Assembly (NCBI RefSeq): GCF_003202435.1 | Contig: NZ_QJHK01000002.1 | Span: 372,001-436,000, forward strand | DNA from: Flavobacterium cheongpyeongense | GTDB taxonomy: Bacteria; Bacteroidota; Bacteroidia; Flavobacteriales; Flavobacteriaceae | Direction of reading: 5' to 3' | DNA length: 64,000 nucleotides | In this document: piece by piece, positions 35,373 through 49,938 of the stretch | How the letters are laid out: the number at the start of each line of letters is the position of its first letter | How positions within the stretch are numbered: the first letter of the stretch is position 1 | The notes under the pieces: generated by a model | Databases searched by the model: none | Seen by the model: the letters and a program-made list of their open reading frames with translations, nothing else | Told to the model about the DNA's origin: nothing | Translations under genes and position numbers: made by a program

Positions 35373-36587
35373 ATGCATAAACCTGAAATCCCTGCTAATG
35401 AAAACCTTCGTCTAGAAGCCTTAGACACTTACAAAATACTAGACACATTACCAGAAGAAGAATATGATGCTTTAACAAAAATAGCAGCCGAGATTTGTGG
35501 CACCCCAATCTCATTGGTAACTTTAGTCGATCATGACAGACAATGGTTCAAATCGCATTATGGTTTAAATGCGACTGAGACACCAAGAGATTTTGCTTTT
35601 TGTGCCCATGCAATAAATACGCCAGATGAATTATTCATTATTCCAGATGCTACTAAAGACAAGAGGTTTCATGATAATCCATTAACTATAAATGACCCGA
35701 ACGTACTATTTTATGCAGGTGCCCCATTAAACAGCAAAGACGGTTATTCTTTAGGAACTCTTTGTGTTATTGATACAAAACCCAGAGAAGGTCTCACAGA
35801 GAGCCAAAAAGAATCACTAAAAGCATTGGCAAAACAAGTAATTTCACAGCTCGAACTTCGAAAAAAAAACAGCCAGTTAGAAAAATTAAATGATGAAATT
35901 GTGAAAAAAAATGCACAACTGAATCAATTTGCATATCGACTGACTCATGATTTAAAAGTTCCAATTCAGGGAGTAAACACTTTAATAAATTTTATAAAAG
36001 AGGATTATAAAGACCTCATAAAGAATACTCAATTAAAAGAGTGGATCGATTTAATTTATTCCAGAAATGAATATATGGATTTTTTAATTAATGGTATTTT
36101 AGAATATACCAAAGTTAGTAATGATCAAATTTGTTTTGAAGATTTTAACGTCCAAAAAATTATTCAATATATAATTGATAATGATGCATTGAATATTCCA
36201 ACTGATATTAATTACATCAATTGTGATGTTGTCATAAAGCATTCAAAAATAGGTTTCGTTCAAATTATTCAAAATCTTTTGTCAAATACTGTAAAACATA
36301 CTGACAAAGAAAAAAGCAATGTTTGGATATCACTAACAGAAGATGAAACTAGTTTTTCTTTTATTTATGAAGATGACGGACCTGGCATACCAGAAGTATA
36401 TTGGGACAAAGTCTTTGAATTATTTGAAACAGTTAGTGAAAAAAACACTAAAAATGCCGGCATCGGCTTGTCAACAATAAAAGCGATAGTAGATCGATTA
36501 GGTGGTACTATTTGTTTGAAGCATAGAGAAAACAATGAAAAAGGTGCCTGCTTTTGTTTTGTTTTACCAAAAGAATACAACTGCTAA
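35373..36587 (+). CDS. Cytoplasmic GAF-domain sensor histidine kinase
   Basis: This 404-residue protein has no transmembrane helix. An N-terminal GAF domain (about residues 22-165, with the phytochrome-related CGTPISLVTLVDHDRQWFKS and FYAGAPL segments) is joined through a coiled coil (165-185) to HisKA with His192 in RLTHDLKVPIQG. A HATPase_c domain follows (N box QNLLSNTVKHT, G1 DDGPGIP, G2 GIGLST). The input ligand is unknown. It is separated by 1 kb from the next gene, a single-domain receiver at 37600 that may be its partner. Confidence 0.88.
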   Translation: MHKPEIPANENLRLEALDTYKILDTLPEEEYDALTKIAAEICGTPISLVTLVDHDRQWFKSHYGLNATETPRDFAFCAHAINTPDELFIIPDATKDKRFHDNPLTINDPNVLFYAGAPLNSKDGYSLGTLCVIDTKPREGLTESQKESLKALAKQVISQLELRKKNSQLEKLNDEIVKKNAQLNQFAYRLTHDLKVPIQGVNTLINFIKEDYKDLIKNTQLKEWIDLIYSRNEYMDFLINGILEYTKVSNDQICFEDFNVQKIIQYIIDNDALNIPTDINYINCDVVIKHSKIGFVQIIQNLLSNTVKHTDKEKSNVWISLTEDETSFSFIYEDDGPGIPEVYWDKVFELFETVSEKNTKNAGIGLSTIKAIVDRLGGTICLKHRENNEKGACFCFVLPKEYNC

Positions 36588-37599
36588 CAATTAGGAATAT
36601 AATTTTACCGCAACATTTTGTCCAGCTATGACTAGATATAAGTGATAATACTTTCCTTTACACTTACCATTACTCTTCATAAAAGTTAAGCTATTTTTTC
36701 TTGTTTTAATTACTTTAGAAAAACAAAGCGCAATAAATGCAGTCAAATGCTTTTACTTTAACTTTAACTTTCAGTTTAATTTAAGTACAGTCAAAAGTTT
36801 GTTTGTGCTTTATAAAATATACTTCACTAGAATTACATCGCCTTTTCTGATTTTTGATTTGGATAACAAGATCGGAACTATTGGGCAAAAAAGGCGTTCA
36901 TGTGTTTGGAACTTAGTATATCATTTTTTGAAGGTGTAGGTATTTCAAAATTGATATTTAAATTAACTAAGTTTGAATATTAAATGGCAATGTAATTCTG
37001 GAAGTAACTGCATAATGGTATACTATTGACACAAAAAAGAAGAATAGTAGTGAAAAATTGATGACTAACCCAAGAATACTATTTAATGAAATGGTAATCA
37101 CTACTAAACTCTTAAATTGTTATTGAAATTATTCTTTAATTTTTTTCTTTCTTAATTCTTGAACAAATTTAATTCAATAACAAAATTTTCTTTCTTTTTT
37201 TCTATGAATAGCAGTTTACTGTCGGTGAATATACAATCTTGCTCCTTAACCTGTAAATAATTAAAAATCAAAAACCTACAAATAACCTTGATGTAAAAAA
37301 CTAATTTTTGTTTTTGGAAACATTTCTGTTGGTTACACCAATGAATTTGTATGATTATATACAAAATTTAAAAAACACACGCCGTTCCAAAAAATAAAGA
37401 AGAATATCTTTACCTATCGTTAATTTGTAATCACTTTAAGGTACTTTCTTTATTTCTGTCTCCATATTGCAGTACCATTCATCGACACTTTTTTTCCATT
37501 TGTCTATACTTTTATGAGGAATCAACGAATTAAAAACTTATTTTAAGATAAATAAAATACATTTGAAACTTAAAAGCATCCCAATTTAAAAATAAGAAA
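36588..37599. other. 1-kb stretch without a recognised gene
   Basis: No convincing gene was found. A minus-strand 70-codon frame (37152-37364) is Lys/Phe/Ile-rich and looks like chance. A short minus-strand piece at about 37430-37530 reads gene-like (LIPHKSIDKWKKSVDEWYCNMET before a stop) but is bounded by a stop upstream, so it may be the tail of a lost gene. No RNA family recognised. Confidence 0.4.
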
Positions 37600-38013
37600 A
37601 TGGCTAAATCATTAAACATACTATTGATAGAAGACGATGCAATAGAGGTGATGAAATTTAACAGAGTCCTAAAAACTTTAGAACTCAATCATCGTATCAT
37701 TGAAGCTAATAATGGAGAGGAAGCAGTTGATATCTTAAAAAGAAAAGAGATAATCCCTGATATCATTATTATGGATCTTAATATGCCTAAATTAAATGGA
37801 ATCGAGTTTTTGAGTATTTTAAAAGCAGATGATGTATTAAAATATATACCTGCAATTATATTAACCACTTCAAATAATCACAGGGATGTTATGGAGTGTT
37901 ACAAAATTGGTATTGCGGGCTACATTTTAAAACCTTTAAAATATGAGGAGTATGTAGATAGAATACAAAAAGTACTGGCTTACTGGAGTACGAACGAAAT
38001 AATTTCCCAATAA
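37600..38013 (+). CDS. Single-domain response regulator
   Basis: A stand-alone receiver of 137 residues: acidic pocket LLIEDDAIEV (residues 8-17), phosphoacceptor Asp59 in IIMDLNMPKLNG, switch Thr in ILTTSNNHRD, and Lys in GYILKPLKYEEY (about 109). The DAIEVMKFNRVL and YVDRIQKVLAYW segments resemble receivers paired with Bacteroidota PAS kinases. It lies 290 bp upstream of the HNOBA-PAS kinase, so it is the nearest candidate phosphoacceptor for the kinases at 35373, 38305 and 42440. Confidence 0.9.
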   Translation: MAKSLNILLIEDDAIEVMKFNRVLKTLELNHRIIEANNGEEAVDILKRKEIIPDIIIMDLNMPKLNGIEFLSILKADDVLKYIPAIILTTSNNHRDVMECYKIGIAGYILKPLKYEEYVDRIQKVLAYWSTNEIISQ

Positions 38014-38304
38014 TAAATTAAGTGTGACCATTTTTTGTTTGTAGTCCTATCGAAAATTAAAGTTCTTATTAAATGTTTTTCTGGCGATTTAGAGAGAAGA
38101 TTGAGAATGTAACTACTTAACCTCTAAATAATTTGTTTTATATAAAAAAAAGTAGTAATTTTCAACACAATTGTAAATTTGAATAGCTGAAATTTAAGTT
38201 GCATAAAATTACCTGGGCTACTTTTTCACATTAAAAACAGTCGAGATAATAAAATGTTTATCCAGATTCCATTTTATAAAATTTTAAATTAAGAAGGTAA
38301 CAGT

Positions 38305-41301
38305 ATGGAAGATTCTCAATTTCATTTTGACAGTGAGGCATTCAATAGGATTTTCCCTTTTTATATTCTCCTAGACCAAAATTTACTTATTAAAGACAGC
38401 GGCAGAAGTTTGATTAAAATGCTCCCTGATTTAAAAAAAACAGAATATTTCTTCCATTCATTTACCATTACCAATCCCTTTCCTGAAGCGCTAAATGTTG
38501 ACAATTTTTACAAAGTCACGAATCAATTAGTAATCATCGAAACAGTTAAGGAAAAAATTTCGCTTCGTGGACAATTTGAAAACTATGAAGAAGGGTATTT
38601 ATTTTTAGGCAGTCTTTGGCTTACTTCTGTAAGTCATTTTGAAGAAAAAAAAATATCTTTTTCTGATTTTGCCCATCACGATGCATCATTGGCCTTAGTC
38701 GATTTAATAACCGATCCTGATAAGCTGGATGCAAAATTACAAAACTATTTCACTACAATACTTCAACAAGAAGATAAGCTAAAAAGTGCAACTGCAAAAA
38801 TTTATGACACCGCACTTTTTGATGCGCAAAACCCCGATCCATTAATTCGCATTGATTTTGAGGGAGGTTTATTAAAAATGAATACAGCAGCCCAAAATTT
38901 AAAAAAATTAACTTATCAGGATGTTGATTATGATCTTCAGGATTTTTTTAAATTCATTGCACCTCAGATAAATAAAACAGAAGAAAAATGGGGGTTTGAG
39001 GCTGACAGTAATCATGAACACTACACTTTTGTTTGCAAAACTTTACAGGAAGAGCGCTACATTCATGTCTATGGGCGCGATATTACAGAACAAAAAAGAA
39101 ATCAGGAAGAGCTTATACGGCTCTCGCTGGTAGCAAAAACAAATAAAAACGGAATTGTATTTACTCATCCAGACGGAAAGATATTTTGGTGCAATGATGC
39201 CTATATAAAATTGACCGGATATGAAAAAGAGGATATCATAGGAAAAACCCCTGTTGAATTGGGTTCGAATTCTTTATCCAATAAAGAGGAAATCCGTAAA
39301 ATGGTTAGTGCTTTTTACGAGGGTAATACCTTTGAAGTAGAAATTTTGCATGCTAAAAAAAACGGTGGTACTTTTTGGTCCAAGACAGTTGGGCAGCCAA
39401 TTTTGGATTCTTCTCAAAAAGTAATCCAATATTTTGCAATGATTCAGGATATTTCAGAAGATAAACAGAAAGAAGAAAAACTTTTGTTGCTTTCCTCAAT
39501 AGCAGATAAAAATATAGGTGCTGTAGTTATTTGTAATAAAGAAGGTAAAATAGAATGGGTTAATAGTAGTTTTACAAAAATGACTGGCTACTCAAACGAA
39601 GAATTGGTTGGTCAGAAACCCGGTCATTTATTACAGGGAGAAGCAACCAATCAGGAAACAATTAAATATTTAAAGAATCAAATAAAGCAAGGTCTGCCTT
39701 TTACTTGTGAGATACTCAATTACACAAAATTTAAGGAAAAATATTGGGTTAGAATACAAGGACAGGCACTACATGACAAACAAGGAGAGGTGATTAAGTT
39801 TTTTGCAATTGAAGAAAATATAAGCCAGGAAAAAGAATTCAATCAACAGCTTATAGATTCTGAAAATCGTTTGGCCTCGTTAATAACTAATCTTCAATCG
39901 GGTATTTTACTAGAAGATGAAAACAGAAAGGTGCTAATTGCCAATAAACGATTTTGTGATTTATTTGATTTTAAAGGCCGTCCGGAAGAAATGATTGGTT
40001 TTGATTCTAAATTGTTAACTGAAAAAAACATACACTTTTTTAAAAAACCAAATGAGTTTATCGAAAGAACAGAAGAAATTTTAAGAAACAAAAAAAACGT
40101 CTTTTCTGAAGAGATTGAAATAGCAGATGGGCGCATCTATGAAAGAAGTTTTATTGCAATACCAAAAGGCAATAAAAATGACGGCCATTTATGGACTTTT
40201 GAAGACATTACCATCAAAAAAAAATACAAAGAAAGCCTGGAAGCAGAAAAAGAAAAATACCGAAACATTATTGCCAATATGAATATGGGGCTATTGGAAG
40301 TAGATAAAAATGATGTTATACAATTGGCAAACCAGTCATTTTGTGATATGAGTGGGTTTTCTTTGATTGATTTGTTAGGCAACAAAGCATCAGAAGTTTT
40401 ATTGCATCCTGAGGATAAAAAATTAGTTAGTTTTAAGAATAAAGAACGGGTTAAGGGTAAATCAGATTCGTATGAAGTCGCATCTATTAATAAAAAAGGA
40501 GAAACCAGGTATTGGCTAATTAGTGGTGCTCCAAATTATAATGTCAATGGCGAAATAATTGGTTCAATAGGAATACATTTGGACATAACCCGACAAAAGA
40601 GTCTGGAATTGCAAAAAGAGGAATTACTTAAAAAATTAGAGAAACAGAACGGGCAACTCAATGATTATGCTCAAATTGTATCGCATGATTTAAAATCGCC
40701 ATTACAAAGTATACATACTCTGGTGACATGGATTAAAGAAGACAATGAAAAAGAATTTAATCCGCAAACGCTGCAATATCTTGCAATGATAGAAGATAAA
40801 GTTGAAAAAATGGATCACTTCATTCAGGGTATCCTAAACTATTCTAAAGTAGATGATATCGATATGATTGCTGAAAATATTAATCTGAATGATGAAATCA
40901 GTAAAATTATTGATATTATCCATATCCCTAAGAATATTGAGGTTGTAATAAAAAATGAGCTGCCAACAATCAAAGCAGAACGATTTAGAATGCAGCAATT
41001 GTTTCTAAATATCATCAGCAATGCGGTAAATTATATTGATAAGCCTCTCGGATATATCGAAATAAGTTTTGAGGAGGAAAAACAGTATTATGTTTTTGCA
41101 ATCAAAGATAACGGACCAGGAATTGCTAAAGAGAATCAGGCAAAAATATTTAAAATATTTCAATCTTTTACCTCTAATAACAGATCAACAGGTATTGGAT
41201 TATCTATAGTGAAAAAAATAGTCGAAAATTATAACGGAAAGATTTGGATAGAAAGCGAACTTACAAAAGGCACTACCTTCTTTATTAAACTACCAAAATA
41301 G
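38305..41301 (+). CDS. HNOBA-like, multi-PAS sensor histidine kinase
   Basis: A soluble kinase of 998 residues. The first 145 resemble the heme-NO-binding-associated (HNOBA) domain: FNRIFPFYILLDQNLLIKDSG, ISLRGQFENYEEGYLFLGSLW, then FSDFAHHDASLALVDL. A coiled coil (about 145-168) follows, then some five PAS folds (about 175-265, 275-385, 395-505, 520-630, 650-770), HisKA with His794 in IVSHDLKSPLQ and HATPase_c (G1 DNGPGIA, G2 GIGLSI). HNOBA domains normally transmit the signal of an H-NOX partner, but no H-NOX gene is in the window. The next gene, 5 bp downstream, is a FIST protein, possibly the alternative NO sensor. Confidence 0.85.
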   Translation: MEDSQFHFDSEAFNRIFPFYILLDQNLLIKDSGRSLIKMLPDLKKTEYFFHSFTITNPFPEALNVDNFYKVTNQLVIIETVKEKISLRGQFENYEEGYLFLGSLWLTSVSHFEEKKISFSDFAHHDASLALVDLITDPDKLDAKLQNYFTTILQQEDKLKSATAKIYDTALFDAQNPDPLIRIDFEGGLLKMNTAAQNLKKLTYQDVDYDLQDFFKFIAPQINKTEEKWGFEADSNHEHYTFVCKTLQEERYIHVYGRDITEQKRNQEELIRLSLVAKTNKNGIVFTHPDGKIFWCNDAYIKLTGYEKEDIIGKTPVELGSNSLSNKEEIRKMVSAFYEGNTFEVEILHAKKNGGTFWSKTVGQPILDSSQKVIQYFAMIQDISEDKQKEEKLLLLSSIADKNIGAVVICNKEGKIEWVNSSFTKMTGYSNEELVGQKPGHLLQGEATNQETIKYLKNQIKQGLPFTCEILNYTKFKEKYWVRIQGQALHDKQGEVIKFFAIEENISQEKEFNQQLIDSENRLASLITNLQSGILLEDENRKVLIANKRFCDLFDFKGRPEEMIGFDSKLLTEKNIHFFKKPNEFIERTEEILRNKKNVFSEEIEIADGRIYERSFIAIPKGNKNDGHLWTFEDITIKKKYKESLEAEKEKYRNIIANMNMGLLEVDKNDVIQLANQSFCDMSGFSLIDLLGNKASEVLLHPEDKKLVSFKNKERVKGKSDSYEVASINKKGETRYWLISGAPNYNVNGEIIGSIGIHLDITRQKSLELQKEELLKKLEKQNGQLNDYAQIVSHDLKSPLQSIHTLVTWIKEDNEKEFNPQTLQYLAMIEDKVEKMDHFIQGILNYSKVDDIDMIAENINLNDEISKIIDIIHIPKNIEVVIKNELPTIKAERFRMQQLFLNIISNAVNYIDKPLGYIEISFEEEKQYYVFAIKDNGPGIAKENQAKIFKIFQSFTSNNRSTGIGLSIVKKIVENYNGKIWIESELTKGTTFFIKLPK

Positions 41302-41306
41302 AAATT

Positions 41307-42440
41307 ATGAAACTAATTCAGGCTTATAAAAAAGATAATGAAAATTGGGAATACCTAACAAAAGAGATGGAATTAACAAATCCATTGGTACTCATTTTTG
41401 GAAATAGAATGCTATTAGAGCGACAGGAAGTCATTGAGGAGATCAGAAAGGAGTTTCCTTATGAGCATCTTGTTTTTGGATCTACATCAGGCGAAATTAT
41501 CGATTCAAACGTATTTGATAATTCGATCGTAGTTACAGCTATAGAATTTGAAAAAAGTACATTTGAAATAAGAACTGATAATATTTTTAATCATAAAAAA
41601 GATGCAAATGCACTGGGACAAGCTCTTTATGAACAAATACCTAAAGAAAATTTAAAGCATTTATTTGTACTTTCAGAAGGAAGTTTTGTAAACGGAAGCT
41701 CACTTATTGATGGACTTGAAAATCGCATTCAAAATAAAGTACCTATCTCTGGAGGTATGTGTGGAGACGATGCAAAATTTGAGAAAACATTGGCTTCTTA
41801 TAAAGAAAATCCAAAAGAGGGAGAAGTTGTTTTAATTGGATTTTATGGTGAAACTTTAGAAATTTCATTTTCTAGTTTTGGAGGATGGAGCTCTTTTGGT
41901 CCCGAAAGAATTATTACCCGGTCAGATGCCAATGTATTATATGAAATCGATGGCCAGCCTGCATTAGATTTGTATAAAAAATATTTAGGAGACAAAGCCA
42001 ATCAATTGCCTCAGGCTTCTCTGTTATATCCTTTGAATGTTACGCCTGAAGGGAAAACACAAGCTGTAGTTCGTACTATTTTAAATATTAATACCGAAAA
42101 TCAGTCGATGATTTTAGCTGGAGATGTGCCTGAAAACTCCAAGGTACAGTTGATGATGGCCTCTGTAGATGCTATCGCAGAAGGAGCTTCACAAGCGGCC
42201 ATATTAGCTATGAAAAACAGAAAAAATCACCCACAACTTGCTTTATTAGTGAGCTGTGTAGGAAGAAAATTAGTTATGAATCAACGTGTTGAAGAGGAAA
42301 TAGAACACGTTCAGGAAATAATTGGAAATGAAGTAGCAATTACCGGATTTTACTCTTACGGCGAAATGGCTCCTTTTAGCGGAAATACGTTTTGTGAATT
42401 ACATAACCAAACGATGACTTTAACCCTAATAAGCGAATAA
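41307..42440 (+). CDS. FIST domain protein (NosP-like candidate sensor)
   Basis: This 377-residue cytoplasmic protein has FIST_N (about 28-215: HLVFGSTSGEIIDSNVFDNSIVV and PISGGMCGDDAKFEKT) and FIST_C (about 225-370, ending VAITGFYSYGEMAPF and CELHNQTMTLTLI). FIST proteins include the NosP family, which bind heme and nitric oxide and control a histidine kinase encoded next to them. Here the gene lies 5 bp after the HNOBA kinase and shares its last base with the start of another kinase gene at 42440, so translation is coupled. Heme binding is inferred from family and context; no ligand residue was identified. Confidence 0.85.
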   Translation: MKLIQAYKKDNENWEYLTKEMELTNPLVLIFGNRMLLERQEVIEEIRKEFPYEHLVFGSTSGEIIDSNVFDNSIVVTAIEFEKSTFEIRTDNIFNHKKDANALGQALYEQIPKENLKHLFVLSEGSFVNGSSLIDGLENRIQNKVPISGGMCGDDAKFEKTLASYKENPKEGEVVLIGFYGETLEISFSSFGGWSSFGPERIITRSDANVLYEIDGQPALDLYKKYLGDKANQLPQASLLYPLNVTPEGKTQAVVRTILNINTENQSMILAGDVPENSKVQLMMASVDAIAEGASQAAILAMKNRKNHPQLALLVSCVGRKLVMNQRVEEEIEHVQEIIGNEVAITGFYSYGEMAPFSGNTFCELHNQTMTLTLISE

Positions 42441-43480
42441 TGAATACCCTGTTAAAAAGGCAAATTGCGAAATTCATAAACTCCGAAAATTTAAAAGATT
42501 TAAAGTTTTTTTTACAGGCGGTAAATGATTCTTATAATAATCATGAGGATCAGATGAGCATGTTACAACGCGCAATGAAAATTAGCTCTGATGAACTTTT
42601 CGAAGCCAATAAAAAACTGGGTGAGGAAGCAAAAAGTTTAAAAGAAATAAATTCAAATTTGACTGAAATATTAAATTCAATGAATCTGGATGCTGAAAAA
42701 TTGGGAAATGAAAAAGATTTTAATCAGGCCGATTTCTTAAAAAAGCAATCTATGGAGATTGTGAATATGAACAAACAAAGAGAAGAATTGCTAAATAGTT
42801 TAGAAAATCAGAACAGGGAACTTAACGAATATGCCCATGTCGTTTCTCATGATCTAAAAGCACCACTCAGAAATATAGATACATTGGTTAATTGGGTGCT
42901 GGATGACAATAAAGGAATTATGGGCGAAAACTGTTTAAACTCGCTTAATCAGGTACTGTTTAATGTTGAAAAAATGGATTTGCTCATCAAAGGAATTTTA
43001 GACTATTCTACTGTAGACAAACTAGAATCAGAAGAGAGATTAATTGACTTTAATCAGGTAATTGATGAAATTAAGAGAGAAATTCACATTCCGAATAATA
43101 TTGAAATTTCGATAGTTAATGATTTGCCAAAAATAAAAGGAAATACCTGGCGATTTAAACAATTAATGCAAAATTTAATTGAAAATAGTATTCATTATAA
43201 TAATAAGGCTCAAGGCAAAATTGAAATTGGCTGTACCGAAAAGGAACAGGATTTTGAATTTTATATTAAAGACAATGGTATTGGAATAGCAAAAAAATAT
43301 CACGATAAAATTTTTAAAGTATTTACGAAATTAGAAAGCAATAATCAAAATTCAGGTATTGGTCTTTCTATAGTTAACAAAATTATTGAGTATTACAAAG
43401 GCTCAATCTGGCTTGAAAGTGAAGAAAACATTGGAACAACATTTTATTTTTCATTACCCAAAAATCATGGAACAACCTAA
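42440..43480 (+). CDS. Cytoplasmic histidine kinase coupled to the FIST gene
   Basis: The 346-residue product has no transmembrane segment and no PAS/GAF domain. A helical N-terminal region (about 1-125), including DSYNNHEDQMSMLQRAMKISSDELFEANKKL, is followed by HisKA with His137 in VVSHDLKAPLRN and HATPase_c (N box QNLIENSIHYN, G1 DNGIGIA, G2 GIGLSI). The lack of its own sensor fits control by the FIST protein encoded just upstream, as for NahK-like kinases. It overlaps the Hpt gene by 14 bp, which suggests that the phosphoryl group is passed on. Confidence 0.88.
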   Translation: MNTLLKRQIAKFINSENLKDLKFFLQAVNDSYNNHEDQMSMLQRAMKISSDELFEANKKLGEEAKSLKEINSNLTEILNSMNLDAEKLGNEKDFNQADFLKKQSMEIVNMNKQREELLNSLENQNRELNEYAHVVSHDLKAPLRNIDTLVNWVLDDNKGIMGENCLNSLNQVLFNVEKMDLLIKGILDYSTVDKLESEERLIDFNQVIDEIKREIHIPNNIEISIVNDLPKIKGNTWRFKQLMQNLIENSIHYNNKAQGKIEIGCTEKEQDFEFYIKDNGIGIAKKYHDKIFKVFTKLESNNQNSGIGLSIVNKIIEYYKGSIWLESEENIGTTFYFSLPKNHGTT

Positions 43481-43784
43481 TTTAAACTATATAGATCAAC
43501 TCTGTGGAGAGGATCATGAATTTAAGAAAAAAATGATTGCAATTATTAAAAAAGAGCTCCCATTAGAAATTGTGGCGTACCATAAAAGTATGGAAGATCA
43601 GAATTACAAACATGCAGCAGAACATATCCATAAATTAAAACATAAGATATCTCTTTTAGGTCTTGAAAAAAATTATTATGTAGCTGAAGAACTTGAATAT
43701 AATTTATTAACCGGTATGGTTAAATGTCAATATGAATTTGAAACTATTTTAAAGTTAATGCAAAGCTTTGTAAATGAACTATGA
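43467..43784 (+). CDS. Histidine phosphotransfer (Hpt) domain protein
   Basis: A single Hpt domain of 105 residues with phosphoacceptor His55 in EHIHKLKHKISLLGL, the helix pattern of Hpt proteins. The ATG at 43467 is chosen because it gives MEQPNLNYIDQLCGED, a proper Hpt start. A longer frame from 43386 only translates the kinase 3' end in another frame. It overlaps the kinase stop by 14 bp. It likely relays phosphate from the kinases to a receiver such as the protein at 37600. Confidence 0.85.
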   Translation: MEQPNLNYIDQLCGEDHEFKKKMIAIIKKELPLEIVAYHKSMEDQNYKHAAEHIHKLKHKISLLGLEKNYYVAEELEYNLLTGMVKCQYEFETILKLMQSFVNEL

Positions 43785-44048
43785 TAAGGCTTTATATGAA
43801 TCTTTTACCTCAGTTTTGTATTTGTGCGGTAAATAAATCATTAATGCTAAACAGTACCAATATTCTAATTTAGTAAACAGTACGAAAATTTTCTGGTATA
43901 ATGCCGATAGACTATGCTAAAGGTTATTTTTATTAAACTCTATTGAAATGCATAACCTGAATAACTTTTTCGTTATAATTATCCTATTAAAAATCAAACA
44001 GGACAGCAAAAAAAATAAGCAAAAGAATAAATTATCCTGTATTAAAAA

Positions 44049-44756
44049 CTATAATAAGTTCAGGCGCTTCATTAAAACAGGACGATTAGCACGACTGACA
44101 GGAATGACGTCCTTACCAATTAAAACACTATTGTCTTCAATGTCAATGATTTTTTTTGTGTTTATGATAAACGAGCGATGCACTTTCAAAAACAAACTTT
44201 CAGGCAATTTGTCTTCAATTTTTTTAAGGGTAGAATGAACTACATAATTTTTATTTTCTGTCTTGATATGTATATAATCTCCTTTAGCTTCTACAATATT
44301 TACCATAGCAAATTCGATTTTTATTAAACGACGATCAATATTAATATAAAATTCGTTGGCATTATCTTTACCTGAGTTTTTATTTATGATTGTTGTTGTA
44401 GCTAATGGGAGCGTATTTAATTTTTGAATTGCTTTTTGAAAACGATCTTCAGTAATAGGCTTTACTAAATAATCAACTATACATTCATATTCAAAAGCTT
44501 CGATAGCAAAATCTTTATCAGAAGTTATCAATATGATTCTGGGAGGATTCTTTAGAGATTGAATAAAATCAAAACCAGTAAAATCAGGCATGTGGATATC
44601 CAAAAAAATTAAATCGACCTCATTTTGATTCAGGTATTTTATGGCCTGTATAGCATTTGAGAATTCCTGCGACAAATTTAATTGAGGAGTATTCTGAATC
44701 ATTTTTTCTATGATGGCTCTTGCCATTTCTTCATCATCAATAATAATGCAATTCAT
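44049..44756 (-). CDS. LytTR family response regulator
   Basis: A 235-residue regulator with an N-terminal receiver (Asp53 in FLDIHMPDFTG, Lys in DYLVKPITEDRF) and a C-terminal LytTR DNA-binding domain (about 130-230: IVEAKGDYIHIKTENKNYVVHSTLKKIEDKLP, then FLKVHRSFIINTKKI). It probably activates or represses transcription when phosphorylated. It is convergent with the FIST/kinase/Hpt operon. LytTR regulators normally pair with 5TM/LytS-type kinases, which are absent here, so its partner is uncertain. Confidence 0.92.
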   Translation of the reverse strand: MNCIIIDDEEMARAIIEKMIQNTPQLNLSQEFSNAIQAIKYLNQNEVDLIFLDIHMPDFTGFDFIQSLKNPPRIILITSDKDFAIEAFEYECIVDYLVKPITEDRFQKAIQKLNTLPLATTTIINKNSGKDNANEFYINIDRRLIKIEFAMVNIVEAKGDYIHIKTENKNYVVHSTLKKIEDKLPESLFLKVHRSFIINTKKIIDIEDNSVLIGKDVIPVSRANRPVLMKRLNLL

Positions 44757-45097
44757 AGTTAAGCCGATATTATAATTCTAGTAAAACTTTTGCAGGATAT
44801 AAAATAGCCTAAACAGTAGATTGCAAAAGAAATACTATGCTTTTTTAATCCTTTTCCTATTCTTTAGCAATATAATAACTTTTTTCAAGACCTAAATGTA
44901 AATTGTATATTTTTATTTATCTATTGCTATAATTTAAAAAATAGTATTGGGGATAAATTTTACCGATTGTATGAGTATTACTTCCATTTAAAATGACCTT
45001 TTTTAAAACTTTCGTCGATTATTAGACAGAAGAAAGTTTTTTTTAATTCGTTACTATCTTTTCTAAGAACATATAACCAAGAGCTCAGTGCAAATGT

Positions 45098-45265
45098 GTG
45101 ATTTTTTATTACGCAAACTATATTAAGGAATTAAATACAAAAGCACCTTTAGAATTATATGTGAGAAATAAAGGTATCAGTTCAGCTGCTGAGCAGGTAC
45201 TATTGCGTACCCTACATAAACAAAAAAAGGCTGTCCGAAAACAGATCAGCCTTTCACCAAAATAA
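45098..45265 (+). pseudogene. Possible fragment of a lost gene
   Basis: A plus-strand frame with gene-like composition reads ANYIKELNTKAPLELYV then RNKGISSAAEQVLLRTLHKQ up to a TAA at 45263. Only a GTG (45098) could start it, and the frame is closed upstream at 45074. No family is recognised; the alternation of helices could come from a repeat protein. It overlaps the SusD terminator. Confidence 0.25.
45222..45254 (-). terminator. Terminator of the SusC/SusD pair
   Basis: On the minus strand AAAGGCTG (45254-45247) pairs with CAGCCTTT (45233-45226), followed by a run of T. It lies just after the susD-like stop codon. Confidence 0.75.
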
Positions 45266-45277
45266 TATAAAACCAAC

Positions 45278-46924
45278 TTAATTTATATACCCTGGATTTT
45301 GTTTCAATTTGCTATTTCTCTCTAACTGAACCTTCGGTATTGGAAGAATTGCTCTAAAATAGTCTTTAGGTTCTACACTGATGTCTCCTTTCTTTGAAAA
45401 CCAGGACTTTCTTGAATATACTCCAAATCGTATTAAATCTTGTTTTCTATGTGCTTCACCAACAAATTCCCAAGCTAATTCATCAAGGAAACCTCCGTAA
45501 GGAATATCTGCTCCTCCTTCGTAATTTGTAATTACTCCTGCTTTATAAGTACCGTATTTGTAGACACTTCCTCCTAACAGTTTCGCTCCGGTAACAGTTG
45601 CTTTGGCCGGATTAGTCTTTCTAAAATTTCTTTCTCTTACTTTTGTTACAATTTGTGCAGCACCGGCAGCATCTCCTGTTCTTAATAAACATTCGGCTTT
45701 AATCATCATAGCGTCGGCTAATCTGTAAAAAGGAACATCATTACTCAATTGTGCAATTTGACCTTTACCAATTTCATATTTAACCATTCTGTACCCTTCG
45801 TTAGATTCGCAGCCATTAACATCTGTCAAGTAATTAAGATACTCGAATTGTATCTTTTTACTTGAATCATTTGGATCAGTTATCATTATTGGTTCTCCTT
45901 TACTATCAAACTGTTTTCCTCCTAACCAGGAATCTTTTAATCTCTGATCATCAGGATCATAAGTATCTATAAATTGAGGTATTCCACCAGAACCATTCCA
46001 GGGTCCTCCGGCTAATTCATAAGTTACCTGACTTTCAGCTGCTAATGTTTTAAATGGCCAGTAACTTCCACCTGCTTTTTTTTGATCAAAAGGAATAGAA
46101 AATATCTGTTCTGAAGAAGATTGATTTTCTATTATGAAATTATCCAAATAATTAGTTGTCAAAGCAAACCCACCATTATTTATAACATCATTAACTTCAG
46201 CTAAAGCTTCGTTCCATTTTGGCGTTCCTATATAAACCTCAGCATTTAAATACAGTTTTGCCAAAGTCATCTCAGCAGCCCATTTTGTAACTTTTCCATA
46301 ATACTTAGGTTCTCTCTTATTATTATCATTTAGATAAGGTAAAGCTCCTTTTAGTTCACTTTCTACAAAATCATATACTTCTTTACCTGTATTTTGTTCT
46401 GGCAAATATCCTTTAGGTAAATCATATTTGGTTACAATAGGAACATTTCTAAAATTATCTAATAATAAATAATAATAAATAGCTCTTAAAGCTCTTAGTT
46501 CCTGAAAAACAGCTTCTTTATTTTCAAGTTCCGGTATTTGCTCTATCTGAAAAATAGCTTTGTTGACATTATTTACACCACCAAACAAATAAGCCCAATT
46601 CCCTTCTGCATGAGGTAGCGGAGCCTCATACGTGTGTTGGTGCATTGTAATGTAATAATCTCCCCAGCCAATACCGTTTCTTAATGGCGTTACTATTAAA
46701 TCTGATGATTCTTCGTATAAACAAAACGCCGCATCCCAGCCCCAATAAACCTCTCTTAATGAAGTATATGCTGGTGCCATAAGACTTGCTAAATCTTCTG
46801 CCTTAAATTTAGTTTCCTCACCAATTACTTTATCATAAACATTCTCATCTAAATTAGTGCATCCTGTTCCTAAAAGCAGTAAGCCCGAAGCAAGAATTTT
46901 ATATATTATATTTTTATTTTTCAT
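45278..46924 (-). CDS. RagB/SusD family nutrient-uptake lipoprotein
   Basis: The 548-residue product has a lipoprotein signal with Cys22 (LLLGTGC). The N-terminal TPR-like region (LRALRAIYYYLLLDNFRNVPIVTKYDLPKG, about 145-175) and C-terminal ELAWEFVGEAHRKQDLIRFG are SusD hallmarks. It would act as the surface lid of the SusC-like channel encoded 11 bp upstream. Its place next to peptidase and hydroxyproline genes suggests oligopeptide rather than glycan cargo, which is inference from context. Confidence 0.93.
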   Translation of the reverse strand: MKNKNIIYKILASGLLLLGTGCTNLDENVYDKVIGEETKFKAEDLASLMAPAYTSLREVYWGWDAAFCLYEESSDLIVTPLRNGIGWGDYYITMHQHTYEAPLPHAEGNWAYLFGGVNNVNKAIFQIEQIPELENKEAVFQELRALRAIYYYLLLDNFRNVPIVTKYDLPKGYLPEQNTGKEVYDFVESELKGALPYLNDNNKREPKYYGKVTKWAAEMTLAKLYLNAEVYIGTPKWNEALAEVNDVINNGGFALTTNYLDNFIIENQSSSEQIFSIPFDQKKAGGSYWPFKTLAAESQVTYELAGGPWNGSGGIPQFIDTYDPDDQRLKDSWLGGKQFDSKGEPIMITDPNDSSKKIQFEYLNYLTDVNGCESNEGYRMVKYEIGKGQIAQLSNDVPFYRLADAMMIKAECLLRTGDAAGAAQIVTKVRERNFRKTNPAKATVTGAKLLGGSVYKYGTYKAGVITNYEGGADIPYGGFLDELAWEFVGEAHRKQDLIRFGVYSRKSWFSKKGDISVEPKDYFRAILPIPKVQLERNSKLKQNPGYIN

Positions 46925-46935
46925 TTTGAATTAAT

Positions 46936-49900
46936 TTAAAAAGTTACATTTAATCCCAAAGTCATACCCGTTGTACTTGGATATTTATCCCTATTATCCA
47001 TTCCTTGAGACGTAGGGTCTTCTCTTTTTATCTCCGGATCTAAACCTTTGTATTTTGTAAACGTGGCTAAGTTATTCCCGGATACATACAATCGCATTGC
47101 ATTGATGAATTTAAACGGCTTAACATCAAAATTATAGGATAAAGTTATGTTGTCAACCTTTACATAATCTCCTTGTTCAATATAATAACTTACATAAGTT
47201 GGATTATAATTTAATACCGCCTTACCATACACTTTGTCAGATGCACTGGACAGCATATTATAATCAGTTTTAGAATTTCCATAAAACATACGTTGACTAT
47301 TTAGTATTTGAAAATCGAAAGCTCCTGTGAGCACCATACTTAAATCAAATTTTTTGTAGCTAAAAGTATTCGTCCAACCTGCATAATATTGCGGAATACC
47401 ATTTCCTAAATATTGCTTATTCGTATCATTGTACATAGAAGGATCAAGTGTTTTCCTTGTACCGTCCGGCAATTCAACAATCCATTGTCCATCATTAGTA
47501 ATATCTACCGATTTTAACCCCCAAAAATTACCTAATGATTGCCCAACTTCTAATCTATGAGTATCGAATGAAATAGGATCTCCAGTGTTTCCTCTATTTA
47601 TATAATCTCCTTCAATTTGATATAAATCATTAGAAAGACTTGTTAACTTATTTTTATTGTGTGAAAAAGTCATTGAGGAATTCCAAACAAAATTATCCGT
47701 TTTGACAGGAATTGTATTAAGAAGAATTTCGATACCTTTATTTTCCATTTTCCCAACATTGGCAATCGTCGAGTCATATATATTAGGAGGACTTGGCACA
47801 GCGTATGTCCATAACATATCAATTGTTTTTTTACTATACACATCAACACTTCCGCTAATTCTATTATTGAAAAATCCAAAATCAAGACCTATATTTACTT
47901 CTGATGTTTTCTCCCAACGCAAATCAGGATTAGGATTACTTACCGGTTCCAATCCTCTCACCCATTTTCCATCATTATAAAAATAGCCTTCATAATTGTA
48001 CAATGTCAGTGACATATAAGGATCATTAGGAATTACTCCTGTTACTCCATAACCTGCTCTTAATTTTAAAGTATTTACAGTTTCAACATCTTTTAAGAAA
48101 GACTCCTTATTAATACTCCATCCTGCAGAAACCGCAGGAAAATTTCCCCATTGGTAATTTGCACCAAATTTAGAAGAACCTTCTCTCCTGATACTAACTA
48201 ATAAATCGTATTTACTATTAAAGTTATAGTTAACTCTACCAAAGAATCCAATTAATGTATTATCATCTTTATAACTTCCCATCCCTGCTAATCCATCCGT
48301 CAAAGCATTTCCTGAACTCAAATTATTATAGGAAAAAGCATCGGTAGGAAAATCAGAATTACTGGCCGAAAATCCTTGATTTACGATATATTGATAACTA
48401 TAGCCTCCTAACACTGTAAACTCATGCTTATCTAAAATTTTATGGTATTTGGATGTTATCTCAACTAAATCACTATCCGTTGTAGCTGTATTCCTGGAAG
48501 CCACACCATTTCGGAAATTTATCGTATTTGAATAATGTTTTTTGGTTTCTGCATATCCGTTTAAAAATGTGTCTTTATTTTTTGAAAGTTGTGCCCCTAC
48601 ATCCCATCCTGGCAATAAATCAAGTGTCAGATTGGCTGTAAATCTTTGCCATGTCCTATTTCTATCTTCTATTGTTTCATTTATAATACCTACAGGATTA
48701 TAATATTGAAACTTACCTTTATCCGTATAATCTTCATCATAAGTCACTCCATCAGGCTCATAAACAGGAGCTGTAGGGTTTCTTATCATAGCCTGTCTGT
48801 AGGCATAAGCTACTGTTCCTTCTGAAAGTCCCATATTTTGGGTTCCGTTTAGTAAGTTCAAATTAAGTTTTAACTTATCATTGAACATACTATGATTAAC
48901 ATCAAATGAAAATCGATACTCTTTATTAAATGTATTATTAAAAACACCTGTTTCATCTATATAATTAAGATTCACAGTATAGTTTGTTTTAACATTTCCT
49001 CCTTTTAAAGCTAAATTATGATTTTGAGCAAATCCACTTCCTGAAATTTGATCCAACCAATTGGTATCAGCACCACCTTCTTCATAAGGTATTCTTAATC
49101 CTTGAGAGCGAAAATTTCTTTGTTGTGTGGCATCTAAAAAATCAGCCTTATTATAAAAATTATTTATTGTAGCAAATGTTGAATAGGTAATAGTGGGTGC
49201 GATGTCTTTGTTTACCGTTTTTGTGGTAATAAGAATAACCCCATTTGCACCTCTTGTTCCATAAATTGCTGCTGCAGAAGCATCTTTCAATATATCGATA
49301 GAAGCAATGTCATTTGGAGCAACGGTATTCATACCTCCCGGCACACCATTAATTAAGACCAAAGGACCAGCGTTTCCTTGTAAAGTAGAAACTCCACGCA
49401 ATGAAATATTAGATGATGCTGCCGGATCACCGGAACCATTACTAATAGTTAAACCCGCCACTTTACCTCTAATAAGATCCGAAGCATCTCTAATAGCACC
49501 TCTTGTAAAATTCTCCTCTTTTATACTGGCAATAGCGGTGGTAACCCTTGATTTTTTCTGGGTTCCGTATCCTACGACCACTACTTCATTTAATTCTTCT
49601 GTACTTTCTATCAGAATTATATTTAATGCAATCTGATTTGAAATAACAACTTCCTGGCTTTTAAATCCTACATAATCAAAAACGAGTTTAGTGTTCTGGT
49701 TTTTGATACTAATCTTAAAATTTCCATCAAAATCTGACACCGTACCTCCTGTCACATTTTTTTCCTTTATCGTCACTCCTGAGAGAGGTATACCATTAAC
49801 ATCTTTAACAGAGCCTTTAATCTCTTTTTGCGCAAAGGAGTTTAAAAAAGCTAAAAGAAATAGAATAGATAATACTATTTTATTCTTCCAAAATTTAACT

Positions 49901-49938
49901 CCTAAAATTCGCATTACTGAAGGTGTAATAAAATTCAT
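46936..49938 (-). CDS. SusC/RagA family TonB-linked outer-membrane channel
   Basis: A channel of 1000 residues: signal peptide to about residue 36 (LNSFAQ), CarboxypepD_reg-like domain (about 38-115, GSVKDVNGIPLSGVTIKEKN), plug (about 125-245) with VVVGYGTQKKSRVTTAI and DASAAAIYGTRGANGVILITT, then the barrel ending MTLGLNVTF. A second ATG at 49914 (MRILGV) is an equally good start. Together with the SusD-like protein it forms a pedal-bin importer. It is last in a long minus-strand series with peptidase and hydroxyproline genes. Confidence 0.95.
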   Translation of the reverse strand: MNFITPSVMRILGVKFWKNKIVLSILFLLAFLNSFAQKEIKGSVKDVNGIPLSGVTIKEKNVTGGTVSDFDGNFKISIKNQNTKLVFDYVGFKSQEVVISNQIALNIILIESTEELNEVVVVGYGTQKKSRVTTAIASIKEENFTRGAIRDASDLIRGKVAGLTISNGSGDPAASSNISLRGVSTLQGNAGPLVLINGVPGGMNTVAPNDIASIDILKDASAAAIYGTRGANGVILITTKTVNKDIAPTITYSTFATINNFYNKADFLDATQQRNFRSQGLRIPYEEGGADTNWLDQISGSGFAQNHNLALKGGNVKTNYTVNLNYIDETGVFNNTFNKEYRFSFDVNHSMFNDKLKLNLNLLNGTQNMGLSEGTVAYAYRQAMIRNPTAPVYEPDGVTYDEDYTDKGKFQYYNPVGIINETIEDRNRTWQRFTANLTLDLLPGWDVGAQLSKNKDTFLNGYAETKKHYSNTINFRNGVASRNTATTDSDLVEITSKYHKILDKHEFTVLGGYSYQYIVNQGFSASNSDFPTDAFSYNNLSSGNALTDGLAGMGSYKDDNTLIGFFGRVNYNFNSKYDLLVSIRREGSSKFGANYQWGNFPAVSAGWSINKESFLKDVETVNTLKLRAGYGVTGVIPNDPYMSLTLYNYEGYFYNDGKWVRGLEPVSNPNPDLRWEKTSEVNIGLDFGFFNNRISGSVDVYSKKTIDMLWTYAVPSPPNIYDSTIANVGKMENKGIEILLNTIPVKTDNFVWNSSMTFSHNKNKLTSLSNDLYQIEGDYINRGNTGDPISFDTHRLEVGQSLGNFWGLKSVDITNDGQWIVELPDGTRKTLDPSMYNDTNKQYLGNGIPQYYAGWTNTFSYKKFDLSMVLTGAFDFQILNSQRMFYGNSKTDYNMLSSASDKVYGKAVLNYNPTYVSYYIEQGDYVKVDNITLSYNFDVKPFKFINAMRLYVSGNNLATFTKYKGLDPEIKREDPTSQGMDNRDKYPSTTGMTLGLNVTF

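Follow-up and report, generated by a model that had tools for sequence, protein, structure and literature searches.

What does a FIST protein do between two histidine kinases when the first of them begins with an HNOBA domain and no H-NOX gene accompanies it? This question is raised by a gene cluster at positions 37,600 to 44,756 of a 64,000-nucleotide stretch of Flavobacterium cheongpyeongense DNA (positions 372,001 to 436,000 of NZ_QJHK01000002.1; the whole stretch is called the window below). An earlier note, made from the sequence alone, had proposed that the cluster encodes a nitric oxide (NO)-sensing phosphorelay in which FIST takes the place of H-NOX and may signal to both kinases. The answer reached here is a different one, which we consider likely: the cluster is a reduced form of a phosphorelay operon conserved in the Flavobacteriaceae, with the arm from FIST to the second kinase (HK2) live and the HNOBA kinase (HK1) orphaned from H-NOX. 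The genes and sites concerned are as follows, with sGC denoting soluble guanylate cyclase.

37600-38013, + strand: REC, a stand-alone receiver (PF00072, 81.7 bits); phospho-acceptor Asp59 at 37774-37776
38014-38304, + strand: REC-HK1 gap of 291 bp, the H-NOX slot in relatives
38305-41301, + strand: HK1, 998 aa, an HNOBA-PASx4-HisKA-HATPase kinase by Pfam; phospho-His794 at 40684-40686
38326-38640, + strand: HNOBA (H-NOXA PAS) domain of HK1, residues 8-112 (PF07701)
38473-38475, + strand: HK1 codon 57, Asn in the window; aligns with sGC beta1 Arg258
38641-38799, + strand: HK1 residues 113-165, the linker with the beginning of a coiled coil behind HNOBA; eroded in the window lineage
41307-42440, + strand: FIST plus FIST_C protein, 377 aa, by Pfam; candidate heme/NO sensor
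42440-43480, + strand: HK2, a kinase without a sensor domain, its HisKA preceded by about 128 aa; phospho-His137 at 42848-42850
43467-43784, + strand: Hpt phosphotransfer protein (PF01627 below cut-off); His at 43629-43631
44049-44756, - strand: REC-LytTR response regulator by Pfam, inverted relative to the operon order of relatives

The gene set read earlier from the translations (receiver, HNOBA kinase, FIST, kinase, Hpt and a convergent LytTR regulator) is in place, with domains assigned by Pfam. Profile checks of the 38305 product against HNOBA and of the 41307 product against FIST both exceed the Pfam cut-offs, with PF07701 at 55.8 bits for residues 1-162 alone and 48.4 bits for the whole protein (cut-off 23.4), and with PF08495 at 146.9 and PF10442 (FIST_C) at 125.5 bits. 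HATPase_c of HK2 is over its cut-off at 84.5 bits, HisKA starts at residue 129 with 19.9 bits (cut-off 26.9), and the Pfam scan placed no sensor domain in this protein over any cut-off; Hpt scores 18.5 bits against a Pfam cut-off of 24.6. HK1 and FIST are separated by a 5-bp spacer, FIST and HK2 overlap by 1 bp, and HK2 and Hpt overlap by 14 bp (ATG at 43467).

The seven-gene operon of relatives

In relatives, a single strand carries REC, H-NOX, HK1, FIST, HK2, Hpt and LytTR in this order. The full set of seven on one strand occurs in 52 of the 80 named loci examined (the best by FIST similarity from a longer list), among them the locus of Kordia algicida. Recurrence of the gene order across many other genomes excludes a chance grouping, and because relatives show the seven-gene order, REC and LytTR of the window can be recognised as the operon's first and last genes. 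An inverted LytTR orthologue is kept beside the operon in genome G349 and is found some 13-18 kb away in G103, G469 and G052 (two contig pieces in G052). The proposal that FIST replaces H-NOX fails on this arrangement, in which the HNOBA kinase is flanked by H-NOX immediately upstream and FIST immediately downstream. Relatives carry both sensors together in one operon, which argues that H-NOX was lost rather than exchanged, and we reject FIST as a swapped-in substitute.

Among 150 sampled genomes of the genus, for which gene places were compared by hand, HNOBA was over cut-off in 37, H-NOX in 29 and FIST in 50. H-NOX lies directly upstream of an HNOBA gene in 29/29 H-NOX genomes, and FIST directly downstream of the HNOBA gene in 17 of them; HNOBA without H-NOX occurs in eight of the 150, with FIST adjacent in six, the window's genome included. 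Of the loci read, only those from Flavobacterium have the operon in its HNOBA form; HK1 of four tested loci from other genera begins with a coiled coil and PAS, with no HNOBA match, and the H-NOX proteins of these loci share 22-24% identity with the first Flavobacterium row. The K. algicida H-NOX, which has been used for gas-diffusion simulations according to a passage in PMC7356049, matches PDB chains 6bdd and 6bde (381 and 379 bits); the molecule named in these entries is an aldolase. HNOBA kinases also occur in other Bacteroidota families, directly beside H-NOX with no adjacent FIST in G273, G297 and G399, and in genomes with no H-NOX match at G227:C6:18091-18309 and G285:C8:363852-363998.

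H-NOX and FIST sensors are both known already, as is their connection to Hpt relays. Our literature search, in a limited collection, turned up no description of the seven-gene operon or of an HNOBA-FIST pair; the nearest prior description is a genome-neighbourhood survey that notes FIST genes near hnox, in one sentence and a figure legend of section 10 of PMC8738867, a section in which no operon, HNOBA, Bacteroidota or H-NOX loss appears.

H-NOX and the HNOBA domain in the window lineage

The window's own genome (99.99% complete) contains one HNOBA and one FIST by profile searches and no match to the H-NOX profile PF07700, which bears out the earlier observation that this HNOBA kinase has no H-NOX. 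An H-NOX gene just outside the window is ruled out by the same empty search, and the genome offers neither an adjacent nor a distant H-NOX with which HK1 could form an H-NOX/kinase two-component pair. A tblastn search with 86 H-NOX proteins finds no H-NOX remnant in the REC-HK1 gap, its top match of 18.1 bits lying below the 28.1 bits reached by the best of 300 shuffles. In genome G003 this gap measures 499 bp and contains a broken H-NOX, interrupted by stops in every forward frame but still matching H-NOX residues 62-180 at 33.5 bits (300 shuffled sequences gave at most 27.7). On an operon tree built by a quick method from REC, HK1 core, FIST, HK2 and Hpt (55 rows, taking in just 15 of the non-HNOBA loci and leaving out duplicates L182 and L187 and the incomplete or differently arranged L146, L128, L157, L188, L237, L239, L236, L233 and L189), H-NOX changes six times, five of these within HNOBA-bearing loci. 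Such counts alone do not separate loss from gain; because the same slot is filled in outgroup genera and G003 retains a broken copy, H-NOX was most likely lost from between REC and HK1 in the window lineage.

By sequence, the HNOBA domain of HK1 matches the Nostoc H-NOXA PAS structures 2p04/2p08 and sGC beta1, and an alignment-based model of it (mean predicted local distance difference test score, pLDDT, of 76) matches 2p04 with a target template-modelling (TM) score of 0.82 and sGC chains at E about 1e-8. HK1 position 57 aligns with residue 258 of sGC beta1 chain 6jt0_B, and section 14 of PMC8196705 describes beta-Arg258 as contacting beta-Asp106 (the residue after the heme His) and the coil. 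The window's HNOBA lacks this arginine and carries Asn57. In a first set of 25 rows with H-NOX and 14 without (without L158, and for one series of rate runs without L175 as well), Arg57 is present in 25/25 vs 2/14. A larger set of 75 distinct rows, from which six duplicates and one row shorter than 180 aa (L146) were dropped, has Arg57 in 55 of the 58 rows with adjacent H-NOX, and all 55 of these H-NOX proteins keep the proximal His; the three rows without Arg57 are exactly the three whose H-NOX has Ile for the proximal His. Arg57 is absent in 10/10 rows with FIST and without H-NOX, which fall in three separate clades. Counted by partner, it is present in 55 and absent in none of the rows with a His-bearing adjacent H-NOX vs 5 present and 15 absent without one, and those five all belong to FIST-less loci. 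On the H-NOX side, the proximal-His position is followed by Asn (54) or Ser (4) in the 58 partners of HNOBA kinases, and by Val, Ile or Lys in 54/54 H-NOX proteins from operons without HNOBA. Because Arg57 tracks a His-bearing H-NOX and is gone in 15 of 20 rows without one, the alignments suggest that an sGC-type interface is used between separate bacterial H-NOX and HNOBA proteins; repeated H-NOX loss would then serve as a natural experiment that exposes the likely H-NOX:HNOBA interface. According to the same section of PMC8196705, structural work on complexes of bacterial H-NOX with its partners would be required, and the heme state seems to be communicated differently in sGC and in isolated H-NOX.

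Three genomes have more than one such pair: L294 (G584), L295 (G564) and L297 (G097) are the loci with a His-less H-NOX beside an HNOBA kinase without Arg57, and a second, short HNOBA kinase stands beside a His-bearing H-NOX in each genome (L303, L302 and L305, in the same order). In the second pair of G097, a stop falls inside the H-NOX match.

Several results weigh against a tight coupling of Arg57 to H-NOX. Arg57 is kept in 5/7 rows lacking both adjacent H-NOX and FIST, so the loss of H-NOX is not by itself enough to make it decay; these five rows come from G065, G135, G082, G133 and G577, and of the first four, whose genomes were searched, G065 and G135 have an H-NOX elsewhere and G082 and G133 have none. 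A test on independent pairs from the first set gave 3/4 in the same direction (p 0.25), and pairs from the larger tree gave mostly 3/4, with one opposite pair in 18 of 200 pairings. When a His-less H-NOX is counted as absent, 4/5 pairs agree and none is opposite (p 0.125), the three rows having been reclassed as non-functional after the exceptions were seen and the very long rows of the quick 68-row tree (L270, L175, L157 and L291) having been left out. The independent losses of H-NOX are too few for the Arg57 pattern to reach significance.

One clade (L128, L129, L130, L278, L287 and L298) consists of HNOBA kinases with no adjacent H-NOX or FIST and with Arg57 in 5/6; the HNOBA of this clade may have another partner. 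Such a case could be extended to the window, with an HNOBA domain still functional with a different partner and Asn57 a neutral variant. The modeled PAS fold and the purifying selection still present are compatible with this, as are the persistence of HNOBA kinases in five Flavobacterium lineages with no H-NOX beside them and the Arg57 that this FIST-less clade retains. We nonetheless consider it quite improbable, since no H-NOX match exists anywhere in the window's own genome and Arg57 occurs in every one of the kinases beside a His-bearing H-NOX.

The linker that follows HNOBA points further to an orphaned HK1. In sGC, the stretch matching residues 113-165 belongs to a nexus where H-NOX, PAS and coil interact, according to a passage of PMC6839917. 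Of 17 linker positions conserved across 25 rows with H-NOX, the window differs at 9. Across the window clade, 41-65% of conserved linker positions are changed, as compared with 2.4% in H-NOX-bearing rows (leave-one-out); in the same clade the HK1 core has changed at 3-7% and FIST at 0-2% of such positions, and the window FIST is changed at 0/188 positions conserved in H-NOX-bearing rows. Branch ratios of linker to HK1 core, on branches that are not fully independent, are 0.95 on H-NOX-bearing branches; for the five clades without H-NOX they are 6.67 (window clade), 8.1, 3.85, 1.74 and 8.18. For the HNOBA PAS part, the same five clades have 2.92, 3.26, 3.37, 1.41 and 2.65 vs 1.44. The ratio of nonsynonymous to synonymous substitution rates (dN/dS) of the linker is 0.19-1.34 in the four computable window-clade pairs and 0-0.09 in eight H-NOX-bearing pairs, and that of the HNOBA PAS part is still below 1. 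Three points count on the other side. The rate excess of the HNOBA PAS part is weak (one-sided p 0.07 vs core, 0.22 vs REC), linker erosion was not repeated in a coarser 75-row test (1/4 pairs, with three equal, at an 80%-kept threshold), and in that test three rows with H-NOX have linker scores as low as that of the window. Read from these alignments, the HNOBA of the window is recognisable but eroding, at the residue aligned with the contact to H-NOX in human sGC.

FIST, HK2 and the proposed relay

The FIST model (mean pLDDT 82) has human FBXO22 (8ua3, E 4.1e-9) as its best fold match. The earlier likening to NosP is not borne out at the level of the equivalog NF041558, for which the 41307 product scores 68.3 bits, far below the cut-off of 450, and this shortfall counts against a heme/NO sensor in the relay. 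Conserved FIST residues including C317 and H366 are listed as candidates, and heme ligands could not be assigned. NO sensing by this protein is plausible by family membership only. The window's own genome encodes NirK (353.9 bits; cut-off 296.3), which gives the cell a means of producing NO. Considered as a correlate of H-NOX, NirK failed on genome counts, being no commoner with H-NOX (3/26) than without it (5/12) or in genomes lacking the operon (8/19), a result that again does not favor an NO-based reading. NirK is over cut-off in all five window-clade genomes tested vs 3/26 H-NOX-bearing ones, an inverse trend for which we offer no explanation.

These data bring in a doubtful but serious alternative in which FIST senses a non-NO input, such as heme itself, redox state or a metabolite, and the relay of the window lineage is not one for NO. 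FIST is a broad family, and a passage of PMC8846402 holds that the FIST of Vibrio cholerae CdpA may detect heme; the missed NosP cut-off and the failure of NirK to track H-NOX fit as well. The H-NOX neighbor in relatives points instead to NO or heme, as does the sensorless kinase, which resembles NosK and VpsS as described in PMC12570481 and PMC6769237, and the cell's own NirK allows NO production.

Which kinase FIST serves is suggested by the operons that have lost it. L127, L129, L130, L156 and L158, five of the six REC-keeping HNOBA operons without FIST, lack HK2 as well; L159 (G069), which keeps HK2 without FIST, stands as an exception against this coupling. The earlier proposal that FIST signals to the HNOBA kinase is weakened by this joint loss, by the absence of the HNOBA residue of the sGC contact from all ten FIST-bearing, H-NOX-less rows, and by the persistence of HNOBA kinases where H-NOX and FIST are both gone. 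In a stronger form of that proposal, FIST took over the role of H-NOX and regulates the HNOBA kinase plus HK2, through HNOBA; we regard this as unlikely. Its place between HK1 and HK2, close to both, would suit a doubly acting sensor, the contact residue changed in every FIST-bearing H-NOX-less row and kept in most FIST-less ones would also fit rewiring, and dN/dS of the HNOBA PAS part has stayed below 1. Opposed to it, relatives have FIST beside H-NOX with nothing replaced, FIST shows no burst of change matching that of the linker, FIST is lost along with HK2 and not with HNOBA, and the linker dN/dS of the four window-clade pairs resembles relaxation. The related conjecture that FIST-keeping lineages rewired HNOBA and linker to FIST input (one FIST, two kinases), with intact operons using the arginine of sGC for H-NOX:HNOBA contact, seems to us similarly improbable.

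We return to the reading of a live FIST-HK2 arm beside an orphaned HK1. In the full operon, H-NOX would regulate HK1 and FIST would regulate HK2, both kinases would phosphorylate the shared free REC, and REC would pass the phosphate via Hpt to the LytTR transcription regulator. Within the window's own genome the HK1 core is the best match to the HK2 core (50% identity, 220.7 bits), followed by a GAF kinase at 35373 (121.6 bits), in a comparison searched from HK2 only, where HK1 ranks first of the 22 matches other than HK2 itself at E <= 1e-10. As the two kinases are related in their cores and contain no receiver, a shared route from free REC through Hpt to LytTR would be economical. The phospho-residues are invariant in orthologue rows, which contain a few duplicates: REC 96/96, HK1 96/96, HK2 90/90, Hpt 94/94 and LytTR 88/88. 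The relay envisaged earlier, from kinase through REC and Hpt to LytTR, therefore stands as to its parts, which are present and have conserved phospho-residues; the operon, the absence of H-NOX, the residue changes and these conserved sites are read directly from the sequences, and the order of phosphotransfer is what those sequences suggest. In the window lineage, with the H-NOX gene gone from between REC and HK1, a FIST that binds heme or NO would drive HK2, REC, Hpt and LytTR in turn through an intact arm and relay, and HK1, with its four PAS domains, may now answer to those domains or to nothing and may be disappearing.

Known systems and neighboring genes

The proposed scheme, with several kinases acting on one stand-alone receiver, followed by a phosphotransferase and a DNA-binding regulator, recalls the Spo0-type phosphorelay. 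The likeness is one of arrangement; an Hpt-type domain and a LytTR output are used here. Closer in its parts is the path from H-NOX/HqsK to LuxU in Vibrio harveyi and V. parahaemolyticus, where passages of PMC6759604 and PMC6769237 describe a cytosolic NO sensor, a kinase and Hpt linked by His-Asp-His transfer. HqsK, however, is a hybrid kinase whose Hpt serves quorum sensing, whereas receiver, Hpt and LytTR are separate genes here (one operon in relatives) and H-NOX is gone. FIST co-encoded with a sensorless kinase is likewise found in NosP/VpsS to LuxU of V. cholerae and in NosR-NosP-NosK of Burkholderia pseudomallei, in the accounts of PMC12570481 and PMC6769237, and NosK has about 130 aa before DHp (a passage of PMC12570481), near the length of the corresponding part of HK2. 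The outputs of these NosP systems are LuxO or a degenerate HD-GYP protein, unlike the Hpt, LytTR and second kinase found here, and the window FIST lies under the cut-off of the NosP model. The H-NOX-PAS-coil of sGC beta1 (section 14 of PMC8196705) is matched by the sGC-type PAS of HNOBA and its position 57; sGC, however, is one polypeptide with a cyclase output, the relatives have two proteins with a kinase output, and the window has lost the contact residue. With two candidate NO-sensor families and two kinases on one relay, the operon is a compact system in which to ask why bacteria keep H-NOX and FIST.

Around the operon, a scan of 36500-45400 with Rfam at gathering scores returned no family, and a scan of the REC-HK1 gap for a Bacteroidota-type promoter gave no full match and a single -7-like match in the window. 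The GAF-HisKA-HATPase kinase that ranks next to HK1 lies 1 kb upstream of REC, at 35373-36587 on the + strand (L151:11902-13116), and a close relative of it stands near the operon in F. hydatis-like genomes and in G488; it may feed the same relay. Beyond LytTR, a SusD-like and SusC-like pair occupies 45278-49938 on the - strand, a label obtained by reading translations. Four full operons have a third kinase between HK2 and Hpt (L133:4212-5570, L135:4070-5350, L137:4159-5439 and L148:7920-9212); of the two scanned, that of L133 has a GAF domain and that of L148 no Pfam sensor domain. Finally, a second FIST system is present in the genus Flavobacterium: in L160 and similar loci, 17 of 20 regions (L175 and L179 excluded, L165 cut by a contig end), a separate type of FIST is followed by fused-receiver kinases, and in many of these loci a larger response regulator lies ahead, of sigma-54 type in L160, the sole one scanned with Pfam.

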